Source: Cyclostephanos tholiformis (lineage: Eukaryota > Bacillariophyta > Thalassiosirophyceae > Thalassiosirales > Thalassiosiraceae). Taken from it: 22,807 nucleotides of DNA. The first letter of the stretch is position 1. Each line of letters starts with the position of its first letter. Position numbers and translations under genes: made by a program. The stretch is from contig JALLPB010000143.1 in the NCBI GenBank assembly GCA_036939975.1, forward strand, positions 1 through 22,807, in the 5' to 3' direction. Below, in pieces: positions 2,988 to 22,807 of this stretch. The notes under the pieces were generated by a model. The model was not told the DNA's origin. It saw only the letters and a list, made by a program, of their open reading frames with translations, and ran no database searches.

Positions 2988-3594
2988 AATGTAACGATCT
3001 TCAAGCAAGGAAGTATGAGTCGACCCCTTTACAAACGAGTTTTGTGGGGTTTGCGTTGAACAGTAAAACTGACCAAGGAGGGCATATTGGGTACCTAACT
3101 CTCCAATGAGAAGAATGTTGTGTAGTAAAAGTTAACCACTAAAATTGTATAGACAAAACAAAAAACCGAATTTATAACTGCTGCGATTTGCAGATCTATT
3201 TATCTACCAAAATCTATCTTAAAATTTGATTTTCCAGGAAATGATACAAAAAATGTCTCATGCCATGAGATGTATTCCCGATATGGCATTGTTTGCGTTT
3301 GGCACAATCCTGTCCAACTTAAAGATGTGACACAAATCCTTCCTGTGATTGTAATCTATTCTTATCTCACAGAAGGCGAGTCAGCTTAGTTTGCTGCTGA
3401 TGCAAAAATAGTTACTTATGGGTATTGGCGAAGAGATGAGACCTGCGTATTCTCAGTAAAAGAAAAGAGGGCTTTAGTGTGCCCAATAGGAATACGTGGT
3501 ATTTAGGTCCATGGCACATGCTTTTTTTCAGCGACAAGACGATTTGTTCCGATGGAAAGAAGTAAAAAAGAAATGGTTTATCTTAGTGGAAATA
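2988..3594. other. Intergenic region between convergent genes
   Basis: About 600 bp between two genes that face each other, so it should contain both 3' ends. It is AT-rich with no gene-like reading frame. A perfect 7-bp inverted repeat with one-base loop, TCTCATG-C-CATGAGA, lies at 3256-3270. I see no classical polyadenylation signal I would stake a call on. Confidence 0.5.
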
Positions 3595-5891
3595 TTATCG
3601 ATCTTTTTTTTCCCTAGCGCCCCTCCTCTTTGTAACCATCGTCCTTCCCGATCTTTCGGTTTTATTGTCATCGACATCGGCTGCGGCAGAGGCAGCAATA
3701 ATTTGTTCCCGCTCCAACTCCGCCAACATTTCTGCACTTGGCTGAGCACACTGACCGAACTCGTTAATGCGGGTGTAGTCCACCCTATACTTGTATCGTT
3801 GAAAGAGATACACGAAGAAGATCAGATCGTCGCGTAGGCACGCTAGCCTGTGCATAATAGGCATCTTGATCACAAACGCGAATAAGTCGTCGATGAACGT
3901 ATTTATGCTCTTGTACGACATGGTGCGCCAGTTGAGGTGGGCCACGCTCTGGAGCTTGTAGTTGATGAATAATTGGGGCGTCATCATCACGAATCCAAAC
4001 ATGTATATGAAGCCCACGAGAGTGTTGAGCACCCACGAGTACCACCCCTTGTGCTTCTGGTAAAACAGAGAGTACATCCCGTATCCAGCGACTAGGGGCA
4101 TAGTAACGAAGAGGAGGTGGGAGGTGGCGATCTCATCGTACTCTTTCGTTTTGGACTTTTTATACGACGATGCCTCGACCCACTCTATTTTGCCCCCCTC
4201 GAAGCTGACGGTGACCGCCTTGGATATCTTCCACGCCTCAATCGCCAACCCAACGCCGTTGGACATCAGCACCATGTAGCTGGTATCGTTGTCGGCCAGA
4301 TAAAGTAGAATAACGAGGCTGAAGCTGGCGTTGACGATCATGGAGCGTAGACTGATGCCCTCCATCGATTTCTTGTTCTTGAAGAAGCTGATGTCATTCT
4401 TGAATGCGAGCACGTCGAACACGGTGTGCAATATGGAGACTATCGCGGTCACGGCTATGAGGTAGGGATTCGTGTCAAGGAGCATGTTTCGAAGAACGTC
4501 GTTCCCCTGGTCCTCCTCCCCTGTTATCGCTTCCTGCTTCCGCCAACTTTCCTCGGTCTGACTTTGCAGCTGCCACTTCCACATCTGTGGATGAGAGACA
4601 AGAGAGTCTCGGTGAGATGCGAGAACGTAGCGGTTCGCGACGGCGCAAGTTGAGAAATGGATGCGGGTTAAGCATCCCCGATGCGCAGGCACGTATGACG
4701 AAAAAAAAAGCGCACACAAACTAAACAACTCACCGCCACAGGCTCGAAGTTCACGTCAAGCCTGCTATCCTTCAGCGTGCCGTTCACCTCCCGTAAACTT
4801 GCGCTTGTGATCCAGAATTCCGATTGGTAAAGTATGGGATAGTACCAATCCCTTGTCGGATCGCTGTCATACCAATCCATGTGATCCATAAATTGACGGG
4901 GAATGCTCTGCCTGTTGGGGAATTCGATCGATCCAAAATCGATTATCTGCAATGTCAGGCTCGGCTTCATGTACAGCAGTATCTGGTCGTGCGTCTTGTT
5001 CAGCGATGCCAATGTCAACACCGAGTCGTCATGCCCCTTTCGCGCGTCGAGGTTATCCTCGGCATCTCTTGAATCTAGCAGGCTCTTCACGTCGCGATTG
5101 CGCTTCCTCTTGCGATAACGCGTCAACGGCATCCTCTTCACCAAAACGTCTGTGGGGGAATCGGCCCCGGAAGCGCGTTTCCTACGCAGCATAACGTGGG
5201 CGTACACACCCGATGTCTCGTTGTTACTTATCGATTTATCGATGGGTACGACGAGCGTCGCATTGCGATAGTTCATGGTCTGATCGGCATTCGAGTAACC
5301 GAACAGAGAAAAGAAGGGGGAGGAGTACTTCGTTTTCGAGTCGGATACGCCCCCGAGTATCAGGTCTCGTTCGTGCCACTCCACGAGGATAATGCCCTTC
5401 CCAGCATTGCCTTTATCGGAGTAATCGACCACATTGATGTCAGGAGTCGTCAGAGGAGGCCATGAGCTTGGCGAATTCGGCGAGTCGGTGATGAGTACGT
5501 CGAGGTCCATGTACGTTCCCGGCTGCCACAGGCACATGGGCTTGTAGGGCTTCATCCTCCCCACGGAGGCGGCGCCGTCTCCGGCATTTGCGGGGACGGT
5601 AGCGCCGAGGGGTTTCGCCTTTTTATTGGTAGTATCCGTGGCCTTTATCGCGTCGGGGAACATGAATTGATCGGTTATTGGCAATCCTCCGTCCGACGAG
5701 GAGGGCGGGGGAGGGGGGGGGGGACGAAAATTGGCAGCGAACTTGGTGGCGACTAGGGCCATCATGTTCTGCATCAAGAAAAAGATTGTCAGCCAGTGAA
5801 GGATTTCCATTAAGGCCTTCTGCCCTCCCTGCTGCTCTCCCGCGGGTGCGGGCGCGGCTCCGCCAACTGGGGGGACTTCCCTAGCTGCCAT
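3595..5891 (-). CDS. CLPTM1-family membrane protein (2 exons)
   Basis: Exon 1 runs 5891-4734 and exon 2 runs 4584-3595. The 149-bp intron starts GTGAGT, ends CCACAG and is in phase 0. Joined length is 715 residues, close to human CLPTM1 (669). Family landmarks are clear: MWKWQLQ right after the junction, then LLDTNPYLIAVTAIVSILH, VFDVLAFKND, HKGWYSWVL, MTPQLFINYKLQSVAHLNWR, NTFIDDLFAFVIKMP, CLRDDLIFFVYLFQRY and YRVDYTRINEFGQ. The N-terminal part has one membrane segment (about 29-50), a Pro run, then a long luminal domain with NxT/S sites. The C-terminal half has several membrane spans. Family members act at ER/Golgi membranes (GABA-A receptor trafficking and lipid scrambling have been reported in animals). 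The role in algae is not established. The start at 5891 is the upstream-most ATG before the first membrane segment. Confidence 0.93.
4585..4733 (-). other. Intron of the CLPTM1-family gene
   Basis: On the minus strand the intron begins GTGAGTTG at 4733 and ends CATCCACAG at 4585. Removing it joins GCG to ATG in phase 0 and produces an uninterrupted CLPTM1 alignment across the junction (…FEPVA then MWKWQ…). Both reading frames end or begin inside it. Confidence 0.9.
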
Positions 5892-6089
5892 GAAAGGGAT
5901 TTAATTGGCGACGGAGGTGAAATGATGAAATAATGTTGTGATCTGTGTTTCTTCCGTCTGTGGTGACTCTAAAAAAATTTTTTTTTTCATTATTTTTTTC
6001 TTGCACTACTATTAGAATACAATAGATACTACTACTATGTAGTTAGTATATTATTATTAGGACGCAAATCCCAAACTTGCGACTTGATC

Positions 6090-7633: not shown

Positions 7634-8863
7634 CTATGAAGAACCTCTGGATCCGTAGCTTCCATTCACCGGCACATAGTTCCCGTTCATATCCACCGAC
7701 GGCACGCGATCCTCCATGCCACCGCCGCCACGGCCATCAGAAACATTCTTGATCAGTAATTCCTCGATCTTGACGAACTCCCTCGCGAGCTGCTCGTCGC
7801 GTTCGCGCTGCCAGTTCTCCAACCTGCTCGAGATCTCGTCCGGCAGACGACCGACGCTCGATTCCAACGCGACCATCCTTCCCCGTACTTCGTTGAGGGA
7901 GGATAGGTATTCGGCCACGACACGCGTGGAGGACGGGGCGTCGATCTCGCCCCTCGACAGACCGTCGAGGTAGGACGCGAACGCCACCGTCACCGGCGCA
8001 TCATCTGGCGGGGGGGATCCCCCTCCCCCGACGTCGTGGACGGGAGGACGGCGGGATAGCGACGACGACGACGACGACGACGACAGGCTGTCCAGGTACG
8101 TGAGCACGGCATTCGCTGTCTCCCGCTGGTCGTCGCTCGGCCCAACACCTCCCTTGTCCGAAATCTCCCGCACCTCTCCCAAGAAGTCCGTTATCGCCGC
8201 CGCGCAGCCGTCGTCGACCACTCCTTTCTCGCACGACGATCTCACCCTGTCGGACGGAGGGATCGGATCGTTCGTCCTAACGTTGACCCCGTTGTAATAC
8301 CTCCGTCCGGCGTCGAGGCCGTACGGTTCCGGCTGTATCATGACCACCCTCGCCTTGGTCGCGGAGTAATCGTCGTTCTTTGGGAAGGACCGTCCGGATA
8401 TGACGAAAAGCATGGCGTATATAGACAATCCCGAGAGGAAGATTTCGGCGCCGACCGCGGAGCTCTTGAGCTTCTGAGGCGTCTGCGATCCCGGTGGACC
8501 GTCCTCGTTGGCGGCGGCAGCGCGGGCGGCGTCCGACGAGACGTGCCACGCGAGCGTCGCCGCAACCCCGGACGACGTCGACGAGATCAGGGCATTGCGG
8601 AAGCGCCGGAGCGCATCGCGACGATTCGTCGCCGTCGTCATTGACGACGGTGGCATCTCGGCATCATCGTTCCTCCACGCCTTCGCCCCCGACGACGGGG
8701 GGCGCATTCGCACGAATGTCATTGGATACGTCAACGAAGGATTGGAGGCGAGTCGTCTTCGTCCTCTCGGATCCAATGGGCGATGGAACGAGTCGACGCA
8801 TCCACAACCACCGAGGATCGCGAGGAGGGCGAAGCCGCCGCCGCCGAAGCAATAGATTCTCAT
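7634..8863 (-). CDS. Plastid-targeted YLD-repeat membrane protein 1
   Basis: A 409-residue intronless protein not matched to a described family. Residues 1-25 are a signal peptide (hydrophobic FALLAILGG) ending VDS|F, the diatom bipartite plastid signal. Residues 81-117 look like a second, twin-arginine-type signal: RRDALRRF, a moderately hydrophobic stretch, then ARAAA. One membrane span lies at about 138-157. Then come C211-E...C220, FL near 227, TYLDSL at 256-260, a Ser run, SYLDGL near 298, EYLSSL near 319, and a coiled coil at about 323-372 containing LPDEI and NWQ. The tail is Gly-rich. The start at 8863 places the signal peptide at the N terminus; an upstream in-frame ATG (8971) would bury it. 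It is divergent from the paralogue at 9264, sharing a 400-bp promoter. Very GC-rich. Confidence 0.8.
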   Translation of the reverse strand: MRIYCFGGGGFALLAILGGCGCVDSFHRPLDPRGRRRLASNPSLTYPMTFVRMRPPSSGAKAWRNDDAEMPPSSMTTATNRRDALRRFRNALISSTSSGVAATLAWHVSSDAARAAAANEDGPPGSQTPQKLKSSAVGAEIFLSGLSIYAMLFVISGRSFPKNDDYSATKARVVMIQPEPYGLDAGRRYYNGVNVRTNDPIPPSDRVRSSCEKGVVDDGCAAAITDFLGEVREISDKGGVGPSDDQRETANAVLTYLDSLSSSSSSSSLSRRPPVHDVGGGGSPPPDDAPVTVAFASYLDGLSRGEIDAPSSTRVVAEYLSSLNEVRGRMVALESSVGRLPDEISSRLENWQRERDEQLAREFVKIEELLIKNVSDGRGGGGMEDRVPSVDMNGNYVPVNGSYGSRGSS

Positions 8864-9263
8864 TGGATCAATATTTGATATAATCGACGAAGTGTGTTTT
8901 GATATTATTTGTGACAAGAATAAAAAATACGATGTCGTCATGGTCGAGGAACACGGCAGGTGACGACGCAATAATGACGTAGGATCTCTTCAATGACGTT
9001 TGAAAGTATCGAATTCCAACATGAGTACCTTTTTTTCTCGCCCGGTGCAGGATGTGACGCAAAAAGATTCGTTGTGCATCCATCTATCATCATCTGTTCC
9101 TCCCATCCCGTTCCCCCCCCCCCCCCATCACACAAAGCATCACCCATCATCATCCATCACACCAATCCAAGTGAGACGTATCCGAAGACTCGCCTTCTTG
9201 TCCTCGTCTCCCCACAACTCCGGCCCGGGGAGATACAGAGAGGTCAAAAAGCAAAAAACAAAA
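8864..9263. promoter_or_regulatory. Shared divergent promoter with TGACGT/TGACGC elements
   Basis: A 400-bp region between two head-to-head paralogues. On the plus strand it has TGACGT at 8975-8980, TGACGT at 8994-8999 and TGACGC at 9055-9060. Established knowledge: in the diatom Phaeodactylum, TGACGT, ACGTCA and TGACGC were described as CO2/cAMP-responsive elements of the plastid carbonic anhydrase promoter. The same hexamers occur singly elsewhere in this window, so chance is not excluded. A run of 14 C is at 9113-9126 in the probable leader of the plus-strand gene. Confidence 0.4.
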
Positions 9264-11173
9264 ATGAAGATGATGGTGGCACTCACCCTCCTCCTGACCA
9301 TCGCGGGCTACCGCTCCAACAATAATAATAATGGTTGCGTGTCCGCGTTCGTCCCCCGGCTGGCAACTACCAAGCCTCAATCCTCCCGCGCGATCATTTC
9401 CGACAATAACGATCGACCACTGCAAGTCGTCGACATCCCCAACATGAGGATGATGGACAACGACGACGATTGCACGTCTGGCGGCGAGATGGGCCGACGC
9501 GACGCCGTCGTACGCTTCCTGGCGACATCGGCCTCCATCGCCGCCGCGATGCCGGCCAACGCGGCTACCATCCCGGCCACGGAATTCTCGGAGCCGCCCA
9601 CGTCCGAGGCGAGCATCGCCAGATACACGTACGACGGGAAGGACATCCTCCCGCTCGCTACTACTGCTACTACTACTCCACCTCCTGCCACCACCCCCGT
9701 CGCCGCCGCCAACTCGTCGGCGACGGTGTCTGCTGCCGAAACCACGAGGCCTAAGAGGAGGGCCGATTACGACGGCAACGAGGCCGGGCCGGTCGGCGCC
9801 GCCGACGAGGGGACCAGGGCCCCCATCAAGGGCGCGGTAATGGCCAAGGAGAGATCGTCGCCCTCCTCCCTGCTCACCAGCTCCCTCGAGCCGAAGGTGA
9901 ACGTGCCGATATCCAAGGAGGCGCTCGTCGGGGGTGCGGTCGTGCTCTTTGGCCTCATGGCCATGGCAAACGGCAACGAGGAGGGGGGAGTCGTCGAGGC
10001 GGGGGGAGCTAGCGCTAGCGGCTCGGTCCCGCCCCCGATGACGGGCGGCGTGGACGCGAATGCGGCGACCCCCCCCCCCCCCCCCCCCCCCCCCCGCCGG
10101 TCGCCGTCGCGGCGCCCAAGGTGGACTCTAAGTCGAGTTGGAAGTTCGAGAAGCCGGTGCCGTACGGCGTCCAGAATCCTGCCGGGAGGAATCCGTTCCT
10201 CAAGGAGGTGCTCGATTACTGCGAGGGCGGGAAGGTGACCGTGGATTGCGCCGATTCCATCAAGGGATACCTCGATAATCTGGCGGACACGGGCGCCGTC
10301 GCCACGACGGAGGAGGTCACCGCCATCGTCGGTTACCTCGGCTCGCTCGGGGGGGACGGCGCGCCATTCTCGCCGTCGACGACACCCGAGAAGAAGAGGG
10401 TCGGGGCCGCGTTCGCGAGCTACCTCGATGCGCTTTCGGCCGGATCGGCTCCCCCCCCCAGCTCCGCGAAAGCCGTCAAGACCTACCTGGACACGCTGAA
10501 CGGCTCCCCCGACGCCGCTAGGTCCGTGCGGGTTCAGAGGGAGGCCGCCTTGCCCCCCGCGACTTCCAAGCTGACATCTCCGACCGACGCGGTCGCGGCC
10601 GCGTCCGGCGCGTGGGATTACGCCGCGTACGACAACCGACTGACCAGCATCGAGGGCAGGGTCTCCACCCTCGAGACTAAGGTCGACGAGCTCCCGGATA
10701 GGGTGTTCGAGAAGATCGAGGCCTGGCAGACGAGGCAGGAGGGACGCCTGACCGAGGAGGTGAGGAAGATCGTGAACGCGCTGGCGTCCTCCTCCCCCTC
10801 GACCTCCTCCTTGCCACCCGCCGCCACCGAGGTCGTGCATTCGTCCCCGCCCCCCCCGGTCCCCGAAGCGGCCGTGGCGCCGCCGATGCCCGTCGCTCCG
10901 GTCGTGCCGTACACGCCCCTCTCGGGCGCCGTGCCCGAGAGGGGTGGATTGCCAAAGGCGGGCGCCCCCGTCGCCGGTCCGAGGAAGGGTTACAGGTTCG
11001 GAGGTGGGTCGTCGTGGAAGTCGGACGACAGCAAGTCCCCCACGGCGCAGGCCGCGCCGCAGAACATGCGTTCGTCCGTGCCGAAGAAGTTCGCGGTGGG
11101 CGGGGGAGCCAGTTGGAAGACCGGCAAGCCGAAGGGGGGCGGCGGCGGGTACCTCGATAACATGGGCCCCTAG
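9264..11173 (+). CDS. Plastid-targeted YLD-repeat protein 2 (frame break at C27)
   Basis: Paralogue of the gene at 7634. The first reading frame (9264 to the C tract at 10069-10095) has a signal peptide with VSA|FVP, a twin-arginine-type signal at residues 78-101 (RRDAVVRF...MPANAA) and a membrane span near 220-240. After 27 Cs this frame runs into composition-driven Arg/Ser sequence and stops at 10238. The family sequence continues in another frame from about 10094 to 11173: SSWKFEKPVPYG, C-E...C, GYLDNL, GYLGSL, SYLDAL, TYLDTL, a coiled coil with LPDRV and AWQ, a Pro/Ala-rich linker, two further SSWK/ASWK motifs and a terminal GYLDNMGP. One extra C (or two fewer) would restore a single frame of 636 codons. 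I list it as one gene. The break may be assembly error or real. Confidence 0.78.
10069..10095 (+). repeat. 27-base C homopolymer inside a coding region
   Basis: A run of 27 C encodes poly-Pro between the membrane segment and the first CE-x(7)-C motif of the plus-strand paralogue. The coding frame differs on its two sides by one base. Such tracts are error-prone in sequencing and also hypermutable in cells. Confidence 0.9.
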
Positions 11174-11423
11174 AGAACTGATTTAGAGACGCGCTACGTG
11201 GGGATGATTTACCAGAGGCTATAGAAATAAAATATTCGATGGAATTGTCGTTCAAGTTACCGTCACATGGGTTTAACTAATGAATGAGACGATGGCTTGT
11301 GTGTTTAATTCGTTAAGGCCGAGTTAGGAGTCTTGACTCGACGGGGGAGATATGTAATTTGGACCAAAACATATCCTTTTGACGTTTAAGGATAATGCAA
11401 ACAAATAGTCAAGAGGGTATCTA

Positions 11424-13300
11424 TTATTTATCGAGCAACTTTCCTTCCACCAACATCTTCATTATTCGTTCAGTCTCATCGGCCAGTTTCTTCTCTTGGC
11501 TGATCTGCCACTCCACTAACCTAGATGCTATATCATCCGGGAGATTGTTGATTGACGATTCTAGTTTCTTGAGACGATCTTCGACCTCGTTGATTCGAGA
11601 ATCTGCGGGACTATTTTCTACTTCACTCGTTGCTGGTGCAGACGTTGTAGTAACATCGCTCAGGGCATCTAGATAACTAAACACCGCCCTCGCCGAGGAT
11701 GGAGCAGGGATATAACCGGTCGATAAAGCGTCCAGATAGTTTGTAAATGCAGCTCCAGTGCTTTCGTTCGGTGTGACGTTTCTGGAAAGTGAATCTAAGT
11801 AGCCCACAATTGCCTTGACCTCCCCATCCGTTGCCACGACGCCGGTGCTCGCCAACGTGTCCAAATATCCCCGTAGGTATTCAGCACAGTCCTCTTTCAC
11901 TTGACCAGGCTCGCAATATTCTCCAAAGTTGCCATCGCCTTCATTGGCGTCTGTCTGATTTTTTCGAAGAAGTGTAGGATCAATGCCGGCATTCGTTTTT
12001 TGCAATGCCGTTGATGATATGCGAGACACTTGAGTCTCGAATCGACTTAACCGGTCCTCAATTTTTGAGAAAGCCGACGGTTCGCCGTCCTTCATTTCAA
12101 TGTCTTCATCGAATGAAAATTGAGTCTTGGAAAATACTTCGCCCTCCTCGCCCACCTTATTTTCCCGTAGATATTGCTCGTTTTCAACCAAAGCGGCGAT
12201 CGTCTCCTCATCGGATTCCACGGCCGCGTATCGATCGACCTCGCCCTGACTTCCACTCATCCTGATCAATATATTCCGTTCCACCCATGGAATGGTACTC
12301 AGGGCCAATCCGACCCTTATAGGCACGGCAAGTCGAGCGAAGTTAACGAACGCGAATGCCTCGAGGCCCAACTTCCTCAAGTCCTCGCCGCTCGTAAAAT
12401 CAGGCCAATGTCCGGTAACCTGGTGGTAGCTAGTCAGGCAGACTGGGATCGAAATGCCCCAAAATGCCGCCTCCCAGAGCGCGTACGATATAGCGCCCGC
12501 CGCGCCTGCGTCCTTTATTTTCTGGAGGAGATTCTTCGACGTTTCCAAAACCCCAGGCTCGTTATTTTTATCACCGGAGGAATCGCTTTTCCCGTCCCCC
12601 GTATCGTTGTCGTCCCTAGCCTGATTCAAATACATTCCCAATGCCAGGGATAACGAAATGCCAATTACGATCAACGGCAACGGTCCGAAGGCCTCGACGT
12701 TCGTATTGTCGATGTTGGGCAAATTGAACGTCGGCAATGGTCGTTGCTGCGTTTGGATGATGACGGAGGAGGGTTTGGATACTGCCGCCTCGGCGCTCGT
12801 CGGGTTGGCGGATATTCTCTCCCCGGCGGTAGCGGCGACAGTGGCCGATGCATCGTCGGCCGGGGGCATCTCGTCCGACGCCGATGTAACGGCAGACGAC
12901 GCCCCTCCCGCGTCCTGCATGGATCGGACATCGTAATCATCGCCCGGGGCATTCGCGGTCGTGGGCGGCGGCGGCGGCGGCGGCGGCATGACGCCATCGT
13001 CGACGGCGACGGGCGAGGCCGCCGCGTTCGCATCGCCGCCGATCCCGCCTTTCTCGCTCCCTTCGATCCCCCCCCCCGGGGATACCTTCGCTCCGCGAGG
13101 AGGACGGGATCCATCCCCGATGCCGAGACCTGCCCTACCGTCGAGTCCACCGCCCGATGATGTGCCCCCCCCCCCCCCGCCGTCGTAGGGAGGACGGGAT
13201 CTTCCCTCGACGCCGAAGCCGGTGAATTTACTCGTATGAGTCGCACCGACATCCTCGGCGGAGATGGCGTCCGGCTCCTCCACGTCGTCGATGATCACCA

Positions 13301-13331
<31 letters not shown>

Positions 13332-13557
13332 CCGTCGTTACTGCCATCGATGGGTTCCGACCGTTCCGACGCGATGCCGAAATCGACGAACATCGTGGCG
13401 CGACGACGTGGCTCGGGCGCCGCCGGGATCGCCGTCGCGCTTGATCCCGACGAGGCCACCTCGCCCGTCATCGACGACGACGACGACGACGTCGCCCGCG
13501 TCGTAAAGTAGGGTTGGGGGAGGGGAAAATTCGAATCACGATGACGAGACGGCGGAT

Positions 13558-13591
<34 letters not shown>

Positions 13592-13726
13592 ACGACGCGG
13601 GCATCGAACGACGACGCGCGAGATCGGCGGGTGGAATGCGCTCGCGCACCTCGAGTCGAGGAGGGCCCGATGGATCAGCAGGACCAAAAGGACGGGAGGG
13701 GGGAAGTAATTTGGCATTCCCACCAT
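11424..13726 (-). CDS. Plastid-targeted YLD-repeat protein 3 with DUF1279-like domain (frame break at G29)
   Basis: Third paralogue, convergent with the second. The N-terminal frame (13726 to the tract at 13301-13329) has a signal peptide ending RCASA|FHPP, a textbook diatom plastid motif, then Ser-rich sequence. It ends in a stop just past the G tract. The remainder continues in the frame from about 13330 to 11424: Gly/Pro-rich linker, a membrane span (PLPLIVIGISLSLALGMYL), a membrane domain containing SYALWEAAFWGI, SYHQVTG and FARLAVPIRVGLAL that resembles DUF1279/FAM210, then CEPGQ...C, GYLDTL, GYLDSL, NYLDAL, SYLDAL and a coiled coil with LPDDI and EWQ. One extra G gives a single frame of 767 residues. 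No twin-arginine-type second signal is obvious. The 3' half is noticeably less GC-rich than the 5' half. Confidence 0.78.
13301..13329. repeat. 29-base C homopolymer (poly-Gly on minus strand)
   Basis: A run of 29 C on the plus strand is read as poly-Gly in the minus-strand paralogue. The N-terminal frame reads W, nine Gly, W, stop across it. The downstream family sequence sits in the frame that would be reached with 30 or 27 bases. Confidence 0.9.
13559..13591. repeat. (ACG)n trinucleotide repeat
   Basis: About eleven ACG units encode a poly-Ser stretch on the minus strand, in the region after the plastid presequence of paralogue 3. Shorter GAC repeats at about 8057-8082 and 13478-13491 encode Ser runs in paralogues 1 and 3. 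Confidence 0.85.
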
Positions 13727-16352: not shown

Positions 16353-17066
16353 ATGAAGCTCTCCACCACCATCTCAATCCTCTCGGCCGTAGCCATCGCA
16401 TGCGCAGATGCGTTCTCCATCTCCAGGGCACCCCTCGGGACCGCATCGGACATCCATCAAGTGTCGTCGCGCCGCCATCGAATCACCCCGCCTCGCATGT
16501 CCCAAGAGGACATGGACCTGATCACCATGGACGCCGACGAGCGCATGGGCAAGACTATGTCCAATCTCGCCGACAACCTCTCGACCGTACGTACGGGCCG
16601 CGCCAACCCGAGCATGCTCGATCGAGTCGAGGCCGATTACTACGGCGCGTTAACCCCCATAAGTCAAATGGCGACGATATCAGTCCCCTCGAGTCAGCAG
16701 CTGCAGATCACGCCATTCGACAAGTCGAGCATCGCCGCGGTCGAGAAGGCGATCATATATGCCGGATTGGGCTTCACTCCCACGAGCGATGGCAATGTCA
16801 TACGGATCAATATACCCCAACTCACCGAGGAACGACGTAAGGATTTATTGAAGCAGTGTAAATCGATCGGGGAGGAGGCCAAGGTGGCGATACGTAATAT
16901 TCGACGCGATGGCGTCGACGCGATAAAGAAGATGGAGAAGGCGGGTGACTTGGGTAAGGATCAGGCGTTGGATGGGATCGATACGATACAAAAGTTGACG
17001 GACGAACATATTAAGCTTGTGGATGAAAGGGTTGGTAAGAAGGAGAAGGAAGTCGCCACATTGTGA
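16353..17066 (+). CDS. frr: Plastid ribosome recycling factor
   Basis: A 237-residue intronless protein. RRF, with EF-G, splits the post-termination 70S ribosome. The core from about residue 50 is unmistakable: MDADERMGKTMSNLADNLST followed by VRTGRANPSMLDRV, YYGALTPISQMATISVP, LQITPFDKSSI, IRINIPQLTEERRKDL, AKVAIRNIRRDGVDAIKK and a C-terminal helix. It matches the usual 185-residue bacterial length after a presequence. The presequence is a signal peptide with the plastid motif CADA|FSIS at about residues 17-23, so the protein should act in the plastid stroma on plastid translation. The start at 16353 puts this signal at the very N terminus. Confidence 0.97.
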   Translation: MKLSTTISILSAVAIACADAFSISRAPLGTASDIHQVSSRRHRITPPRMSQEDMDLITMDADERMGKTMSNLADNLSTVRTGRANPSMLDRVEADYYGALTPISQMATISVPSSQQLQITPFDKSSIAAVEKAIIYAGLGFTPTSDGNVIRINIPQLTEERRKDLLKQCKSIGEEAKVAIRNIRRDGVDAIKKMEKAGDLGKDQALDGIDTIQKLTDEHIKLVDERVGKKEKEVATL

Positions 17067-21206: not shown

Positions 21207-22667
21207 TTACATGTAGACACGAAAGCTTACGTTTGCTTCCTCGTTGGCGACAAAAGCGGTGATGGGGGCTTCGTCGATGTTGGCACCGGCGATGAGTGCT
21301 TGGCATGGTAGACGTGCCGGGAAGTCTTTGCCAAGCGCGCGAGCGATTTGCATCTTCCCAACGTGCGGGAGTTTGTATTGGTTCCCACCGTCAGAAAGGA
21401 TGATGGAGTTCATTACCATCTGCACCATTGACCAGACTTGCCTGCAGACGTCGAGAGGCAAGTTGTCGTATGCCTCCTCGACGTTGGCGATCAGCTCGTC
21501 AAGGTTCTTTGCCGGTTTTTGATATTGCAACAACTGGATCACACGAAAAAACGCAAGATCCAGCGTATTTGTGTCGGGCGAGTTCGCCGGCTGGGCGAGG
21601 AAGTCGATGTCCCAACCGGCTTCGTCTCGCAGCTGCGTGACATGCTGGGTGAGTCATTTGCCTAACCTCCCCGGCTAGGGATGCACCGGTGCATTGTCGA
21701 GTTGGATGCGGACGACTCGTGCCTCCCATGCCGACCATTTTTCCATAATTGCCGGAAGTAATTTGTTGATGTACATCTCCTCGCTCGTAGCTTTCGTCAC
21801 ATTCACCGTACGCATCTCAATAGTCCCAGCAGGTCGATTGCGCGAACTTCTCACCGCTGGGACCTGTTCAACGAAGAACCAGGTCCCAATTTTCCCGTCC
21901 CACCAGTCCCCTGTGACAGGATTGGGACAAGGGCGTGCCACTGCAGTAAGGCACATTGCCTTAGGAATGTGACTCTTGTGCTGGCATACACGATGGGGAG
22001 GTTTCTCGCCAGGCACGAGTATGTAGTTCATGTTGACCTGGTAGAGATAAAACCACTTTTCGTCAATGTCAACACGATTGAACATTGAAGAGAAGCAATT
22101 GTCTTGGACATTCCCAAGACAATAAGCAACACGTGCTGCCTTGTTGGGCTCCGTCAACATTGGCTTGATGTGACTTTTTGTAGTCCGAAGAAGGCCACGT
22201 TTCATGGCATCATGAAGGGTGGACTTTGGAACACCAATTTTCTTAGCTAAGGTGCGAATGTCCTTGCGAAAATGCCACTCTACCTGCCTAACTCGTGCAT
22301 GTAGCTCTTGAACACTAATGTGTCGGGGTCTTCCTGGTACGTTCTTATGCTTGAGTGACTCCATAAGATTGTGTCTTAGGGAGTCAACAATAGCATCCTT
22401 GTGACGCCGCCAAATGTCTCCGACATATCTGGGTGACACGCCCAAGTCAGCTAACTCCTGCGCGACCTGCCCATAGGCCTTCAATCTGTTCATAAGACTC
22501 CCAGTCTCGGGGCTGACATACTTGCACAAGCAGAGAGAGACCTTGAAGCGGATCTCTTCCTGCTTGCCAGAGAGTTTCTTGTGCCCCACCATTGTTTTTT
22601 CACGAATTTTGGCATGCTCTGTGAGATTTTCCTGGACGTACGATACAGAAAGGGTAGAACATATCAT
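21207..22667 (-). pseudogene. Mariner-type transposase, two in-frame stops
   Basis: One continuous frame, 22667 to 21207, broken by TAG at 21675-21677 and TGA at 21654-21656. The N-terminal half has helix-turn-helix regions (RYVGDIWRRHKDAI; PKSTLHDAMKRGLL) and a GRPRH linker. The catalytic domain has VDIDEKWFYLYQ (first Asp), VRIQLDNAPVHP (second Asp) and QPANSPDTNTLDLAFF (third Asp). About 40 codons separate the second and third Asp, stops included, close to plant-type DD39D mariner elements. It ends with YKLPHVGK, another landmark of this group. Both stops fall between the second and third catalytic Asp, so the copy cannot make active transposase by ordinary translation. The likely start is ATG at 22592 (MVGHKKLS) or 22667. 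Confidence 0.88.
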
Positions 22668-22807
22668 TGGTCTGATGGGCGCGCCAATTTTTTCCCATCT
22701 ATCCTACGGTACCTATGGTACTCTATCCTACAGGGACAGCGTCAAAATTAGGAGGAATTAAATTGCGGCGCAATAAAGCCGTTTTCAGAAATAGCCAATA
22801 GCACCAT

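Follow-up and report, generated by a model that had tools for sequence, protein, structure and literature searches.

Three adjacent genes on one contig of the centric diatom Cyclostephanos tholiformis (order Thalassiosirales) encode related proteins with plastid-type starts. Do they represent a new protein family, and what might their products do? The genes, here called A, B and C, lie on contig JALLPB010000143.1 (C143), which in its entirety (22,807 bases) forms the window analyzed here and belongs to an assembly of 25 Mb in 1,566 contigs. An earlier note on this DNA described three neighbors in minus/plus/minus order, encoding proteins of 409, about 636 and about 767 residues, and regarded them as members of no described family. 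The open reading frames bear out this arrangement, although those of B and C are broken. The observation on A, B and C largely holds, and the claim of novelty is wrong: judged from their sequences, all three are old paralogues within the already catalogued family “Diatom pyrenoid component 2” (DPC2). What looks new here is that A and B appear to be routed by the twin-arginine translocation (Tat) pathway and have one internal span, that Trp/Tyr-Gly motifs recur in B-type proteins, and that the same assembly encodes a soluble, plastid-type protein in which 28 YL-type units are found. Coordinates are collected in Table 1.

Assignment to the DPC2 Family

In an hmmscan search of Pfam, the proteins A, B and C matched PF25195 (DPC2) with 75.3, 101.2 and 98.9 bits, respectively (E = 5.9e-21 for A), all above the curated cut-off of 70 bits. 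Gene A also passed the cut-off of 27 bits for PF25193, the “DPC1 motif” (46.9 bits, E = 4.7e-12). Based on these matches, the three proteins almost certainly belong to the DPC2 family. The idea that no family of this design had been described is incorrect: PF25195 covers A, B and C, and PF25193 covers A. A profile match to a known family was the refutation named in the earlier note itself, although DPC2 is encountered here as a named Pfam entry and not as a well-characterized family. A location of DPC2 in the pyrenoid, the site of CO2 fixation in the alga, is implied by the Pfam name alone. Both names presumably go back to Nam et al. 2024 and their proteome of the diatom pyrenoid. A literature search for “diatom pyrenoid component”, DPC1 and DPC2 returned no paper on DPC1 or DPC2 among the matches listed.

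Within the assembly, DPC2 matches were reported for the three window genes and for a single gene region of contig C1201, and for no others. At E <= 1, the sole match reported for PF25193 was A, with B and C unmatched. The B protein of Stephanodiscus triporus scores 26.4 bits against PF25193, just below the cut-off, and has the domain in its precomputed list. A first homologue search listed 49 proteins, all 49 with a precomputed PF25195 domain; with A as the query, 22 proteins were listed (one of them the window's own record), each carrying both PF25195 and PF25193. The PF25195 model covers 105 positions, among which are neither the coiled coil nor the span, and neither the Tat-like signal nor the tail motifs; its likeness to A, B and C is limited to the YLD domain.

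The three proteins have in common a CE-x(7)-C pair, YL[DSGN] units, LPD-x-[IV] and WQ. Pro, Ala and Ser are abundant in them, as would be expected if their similarity were one of low complexity only. This explanation has practically no chance of being correct and was rejected. In their C-terminal parts, A, B and C contain the pattern Y[LI][DSGN] three, four and four times, versus means of 0.14, 0.19 and 0.26 after shuffling, and for no protein was the observed count attained in 5000 shuffles. In an alignment of 47 rows (the window fragment plus 46 of the 71 proteins then collected), both Cys and seven further columns, mostly within YL units (YL, Tyr, Ser, Val), are invariant, and the curated DPC2 cut-off is passed by all three. 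With C as the query, the whole assembly yielded B (E = 3.3e-22) and A (E = 1.8e-12). The shared parts are thus homologous. Of the earlier description, the relationship as paralogues holds, and so do the presequence of plastid type, the span and the common coiled coil. Among the 110 proteins fetched, 104 have a Cys pair, with 5–22 residues in between, ahead of an [FY][LMI] helix; the spacing is eight residues in 106 of 146 occurrences.

For the last 195 residues of C, AlphaFold2 predicted a helix at each YLD unit and a longer one of 58 residues; only the long helix can be considered firm because the mean predicted local distance difference test score (pLDDT) is 62.8. In the model of A (mean pLDDT 56.7), the Tat-like segment, the span and the YL-type units are helical, and a 63-residue helix is present as well. 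The single long helix modeled for A or C would be compatible with a coiled coil, with no partner visible for the hetero-oligomers suggested in the earlier note. By sequence, no credible solved relative was found for A (best E 3.2) or for B after its frame break (best E 0.22).

Evolution and Linkage of the Three Genes

A tree of 76 rows (73 collected proteins and the three window genes) was built on the DPC2 domain plus the coiled coil. Each of the three types forms a single group across related diatoms, with supports of 98/95 for A, 100/97 for B and just 72/87 for C, in a tree where the tool flagged several long branches. In this tree, the nearest relative of B is P0040 of S. triporus. As the split into A, B and C predates the divergence of the species sampled, the types are not recent duplicates of one species. 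The local duplication invoked in the earlier note is therefore retained insofar as the genes are real, clustered paralogues, and dropped insofar as it would be recent. The combined idea of an undescribed family made by recent local duplication, to which the tandem cluster and its three clear paralogues lend some appeal, is highly improbable: PF25195 and PF25193 already describe these proteins, and the grouping of each type across species led us to reject a recent origin.

Linkage seems to extend to other diatoms. In S. triporus, the A, B and C types (ACHAW5_001331, 001337 and 001338) are each listed on a contig of 27,426 bp, and pairs of B and C types are found on equal-sized contigs of 14,293 bp (P0039, P0033) and 21,201 bp (P0109, P0016). 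The contigs were matched by their sizes in protein tables, where contig names are not visible, and for this reason the evidence for conserved synteny is strong but indirect. Taken together, A, B and C very probably represent an old, linked cluster.

Targeting and Topology

Homologues were labeled as A, B or C type by motif and tree; one of those counted as A type is the window's own record. In the window, the three proteins have a signal-peptide-like start that ends before a Phe (DSF in A, SAF in B and C), which we take to be the diatom plastid motif. In A and B, this start is followed by a segment resembling a Tat signal, which consists of twin Arg, a hydrophobic stretch and an AxA site. A loose RR..AxA pattern was found in 9/9 B-type homologues (shuffled mean 1.5, maximum 5) and in 20/22 A-type homologues (shuffled mean 7.9, maximum 14). 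A narrow twin-Arg pattern, fitted by eye post hoc after inspection of the sequences, is present in 17 of the 22 A-type and seven of the nine B-type proteins and in none of the 42 of C type; the five A-type misses include short entries that look N-terminally incomplete. Routing of A and B by a Tat-type signal is somewhat more likely than not, the loose pattern being unspecific (see below).

One internal hydrophobic span per protein was detected at the threshold used, and a second hydrophobic stretch, at the extreme N-terminus of A, is read as its signal peptide. In A and B, the single span is situated between the Tat-like signal and the conserved arm. With the N-terminus in the lumen, the DPC2 arm would be stromal, since the span precedes it. 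Alternatively, the whole protein might be luminal after the Tat-like signal, the span serving as an anchor, and organize a luminal carbonic anhydrase. A segment FS[EDG].P.S[EDG].S[IVL]A following the AxA site in six of nine B-type homologues and in window B fits this arrangement, as does the carbonic anhydrase of Phaeodactylum, located inside the lumen of the pyrenoid-crossing thylakoid (PMC10288592). This alternative is nevertheless improbable, given the position of the span ahead of the arm and the C-type proteins, which have the same arm and lack the narrow twin-Arg pattern (0/42). A stromal arm is the preferred reading.

Paralogue-Specific Motifs

The motif PYG..GR[RN] occurs in all A-type (22/22) and B-type (9/9) homologues and in 0/42 of C type. 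The B-type proteins are further distinguished by W..PxPYGxN, which is present in 9/9 of them and in none of the A- or C-type proteins. The tail of B is Pro-rich, with GGG.SWK motifs and GYLDNM at the C-terminus; the related [GN]..W[KT] was found in one of 42 C-type sequences. Counted over ten B-type sequences (window B included), 36 of 40 Trp lie within recurring motifs, a number that describes the sequences and does not test the motifs, because these were defined on the same sequences. The “Gly tail” that had been ascribed to A amounts to no more than a short stretch rich in Gly.

The middle domain of C, marked by SYA[LF]WE in 32 of 42 C-type proteins, had been called DUF1279-like. By eye, it resembles FAM210A/B (PF06916) in a two-part hydrophobic layout, with no Pfam match. 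None of 11 C-type rows matched PF06916, for which only contig C1121, and not C, was reported in the whole assembly. An hhalign comparison with the FAM210 protein of this assembly yielded E = 0.027 at a probability of 0.9%. The DUF1279 label is supported neither by the Pfam rows nor by this comparison. A stand-alone plastid-type protein is encoded on contig C304 (about 3056-3740, minus strand); its domain shares 63% identity with C's middle domain, which is why C looks like a fusion.

A Possible Tether between Thylakoid and Rubisco Matrix

As much as 20% of the CO2 fixed worldwide is credited to diatoms (PMC10288592). In the literature searched, no account was found of what fixes the diatom Rubisco matrix to the CO2-delivering membrane. 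The linked trio of DPC2 proteins and the soluble YLD array described below provide concrete candidates, and short motifs, for such a link.

By analogy with known systems, it is tentatively proposed that these proteins are thylakoid-anchored tethers, binding the Rubisco matrix via their stromal YLD/coiled-coil part and short motifs; we regard this as quite possible, if a little short of probable. A and B would enter the plastid and, routed by Tat, cross the thylakoid membrane once, leaving a piece of the N-terminus on the luminal side and exposing a long C-terminal part to the stroma. The latter would constitute a sticker-and-scaffold arm, in which the motifs PYGL..GR[RN], W..PxPYGIxN and GGxxWK bind the Rubisco matrix. 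Its DPC2 domain (four YLD-type helices) would associate with other YLD helices, including those of the 28-unit soluble protein, and the coiled coil would oligomerize A, B and C. The C protein would act likewise from a different membrane module. As an outcome, the thylakoid that penetrates the pyrenoid would adhere more strongly to the Rubisco matrix, and the CO2-delivering membrane would be kept inside.

The idea that the B-type motifs might be stickers is drawn from PYCO1, the Rubisco linker of Phaeodactylum. In PYCO1, the Trp of KWSP is needed to bind the Rubisco small subunit and the Tyr of GTGYNP is needed for condensation; its authors found no homologue in other algae (PMC10288592). The likeness is in working only: in each case, Trp/Tyr-Gly motifs recur within a plastid protein that is largely disordered. 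PYCO1 has an isoelectric point of 10.03 (PMC10288592), compared with 6.06 (A), 6.2 (B) and 4.41 (the part of C), and A, B and C are predicted to be membrane-anchored, unlike PYCO1. Tethering of membrane to matrix has a counterpart in Chlamydomonas, where adhesion by SAGA1 and MITH1 has been proposed, SAGA1 has Rubisco-binding motifs and RBMP1 binds Rubisco (PMC11649565). Here again, the likeness of SAGA1, MITH1 and RBMP1 is one of working only.

Several observations weigh against the tether. No window protein contains the PYCO1 motifs KWSP, GTGYNP or EWxSMN, nor does any of 110 homologues. The models of A and C are low in overall confidence, the PYG motif of A lies in a stretch with a pLDDT of about 40-46, and a fold search of the DPC2-plus-helix model of C against the PDB gave no matches with E <= 0.001. 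The loose RR..AxA pattern is unspecific: it is also present in 11 of 38 Met-starting C-type proteins (shuffled mean 5.3, maximum 11), its first match in window A is a different RR pair, and the start of window C is matched too. Finally, window B seems to be without the PYG..GR motif present in all nine B-type homologues. Where S. triporus B has this motif, window B (10000-10100) has a gap beside a poly-C run, which may reflect either loss or mis-assembly.

Other Proteins with YLD Units

The DPC2 match on contig C1201 corresponds to a soluble YLD array. This protein has 28 YL/YM/YI units, 13 of them YLD, and no Trp; 24 of the 27 spacings between units measure 19-25 residues. Used as a query, it retrieved a list of 39 proteins, all with precomputed PF25195, of which two (P0109, P0110) are of B type. 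The LPD coiled-coil signature occurs in none of the other 37, which are multi-YLD proteins, versus 17/22 of A type, 9/9 of B type and 39/42 of C type.

Since arrays occur without the LPD coiled coil, YLD units may bind a partner outside the membrane. Diatom pyrenoids have a protein shell (PMC13159521), and the DPC2 proteins might be attached to this shell or the pyrenoid margin and not to the penetrating thylakoid. YLD helices would then dock on proteins of the shell or of the matrix edge, with the span residing in a peripheral thylakoid. The Tat-like signal and span of A and B point to the thylakoid instead, and no shell partner was identified in this analysis, so that we consider attachment to the shell unlikely, though worth keeping in mind. 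Beyond the proposed tether in the penetrating thylakoid, a broader idea may be formulated: the YLD helix as a general adhesive unit of the diatom pyrenoid, with the B-type Trp/PYG motifs as centric Rubisco stickers that replace PYCO1. This is speculative and rather doubtful. If true, membrane, matrix and enzymes would be held by one repeated motif, in anchored arms, a soluble array and fusions.

Among the 37 proteins, P0102, from the pennate Cylindrotheca closterium, scores 62.1 bits against PF25195, below the cut-off of 70, and has a weak I29 match. A weak, sub-threshold match to SET was observed at the C-terminus of P0106 (E = 0.0044, 17.9 versus 22.4 bits), for which a phmmer search of the PDB gave one match, at E = 0.54. 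The C-terminal region of P0100 is SET-like by eye, with no Pfam match. The SET-like part of P0106 and P0100 could possibly be a methyltransferase brought to the pyrenoid.

Gene Models and Neighboring Genes

The starts of A and B are 400 bp apart and divergent; B and C are convergent.

Table 1. Features of genes A, B and C in the window, and the soluble YLD array on contig C1201.
Feature	Position	Strand	Details and basis
Gene A	7637-8863	-	409 residues, intact open reading frame; presequence, RR..AxA segment, span, DPC1 motif, DPC2, coiled coil
A putative Tat-like thylakoid signal (residues 80-125)	8489-8626	-	Twin Arg, helix and AxA; RRDALRRF; model helix 81-98
A predicted internal span (residues 136-155)	8399-8458	-	Hydropathy 1.96 over 137-155; model helix 136-155
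A DPC1 motif with PYGLDAGRRYY	8282-8413	-	PF25193, 49.9 bits (whole-assembly search)
A DPC2 domain with YLD units	7889-8245	-	PF25195, 78.2 bits (assembly search)
A predicted coiled coil (residues 313-375)	7739-7927	-	Last YL unit into 63-residue helix; AlphaFold2, mostly pLDDT 82-97
Gene B	9264-11170	+	636 residues (two frames end to end); RR..AxA, span, W..PYGVQN, DPC2, coiled coil
B putative Tat-like signal (residues 78-100)	9495-9563	+	RRDAVVRF...ANA; RR..AxA pattern
B predicted internal span	9909-9965	+	Hydropathy 1.64
B frame break, run of 27 C	10069-10095	+	Sequence
B motif W-KFEKPVPYGVQN	10139-10177	+	Same motif in 9/9 B-type homologues
B DPC2 domain	10208-10513	+	PF25195, 103.6 bits (assembly search)
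B predicted coiled coil with LPDRV and WQ	10628-10783	+	Sequence motifs
B two GGG[SA]SWK motifs	10991-11020, 11099-11131	+	Related [GN]..W[KT] in 5/9 B-type
B C-terminal GYLDNMGP, YLD unit beyond the domain	11147-11170	+	GYLD at C-terminus in 5/9 B-type
Gene C	11427-13726	-	About 767 residues over frame break; presequence, F-x-[DG]-F-G motifs, span, middle domain, DPC2, coiled coil
C frame break, run of 29 C	13301-13329	-	Sequence
C predicted span PLPLIVIGISLSLALGMYL	12627-12683	-	Hydropathy 1.96
C middle domain (KDAG..GAISYALWE ... FAFVNFARLAVP)	12264-12539	-	Conserved; paralogue on C304; unmatched by PF06916
C DPC2 domain	11646-11921	-	PF25195, 102.8 bits (assembly search); model with one helix per YLD unit
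C predicted coiled coil, 58-residue helix	11433-11606	-	AlphaFold2 helix 136-193 of fragment, mostly pLDDT 72-95
Soluble YLD array gene (contig C1201)	122-2578	-	Five inferred exons joined, 684 residues, plastid-type start

Genes B and C have no continuous open frame in this assembly, each being interrupted at a poly-C run. These breaks are likely an assembly error in homopolymer length, because the homologues P0040 (the S. triporus B type) and P0002, read at full length, are uninterrupted at those points. The public C. tholiformis model P0001, to which C is 100% identical over its last 183 residues, has 499 residues and starts inside C; its shortness is perhaps owed to the same poly-C cause. 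Other C runs in the window measure 14, 14 and 18 bases, at 9113, 13165 and 13736.

Elsewhere in the window, open frames at 21210-22676 (minus strand) resemble a transposase of the Tc1/mariner type by eye and have no Pfam match at E 0.01. A gene of the CLPTM1 family (PF05602) is represented by two overlapping open frames at 3598-5897 (minus strand). A ribosome recycling factor (PF01765) is encoded at 16353-17063 (plus strand); it has a signal-like start and is perhaps a plastid protein.

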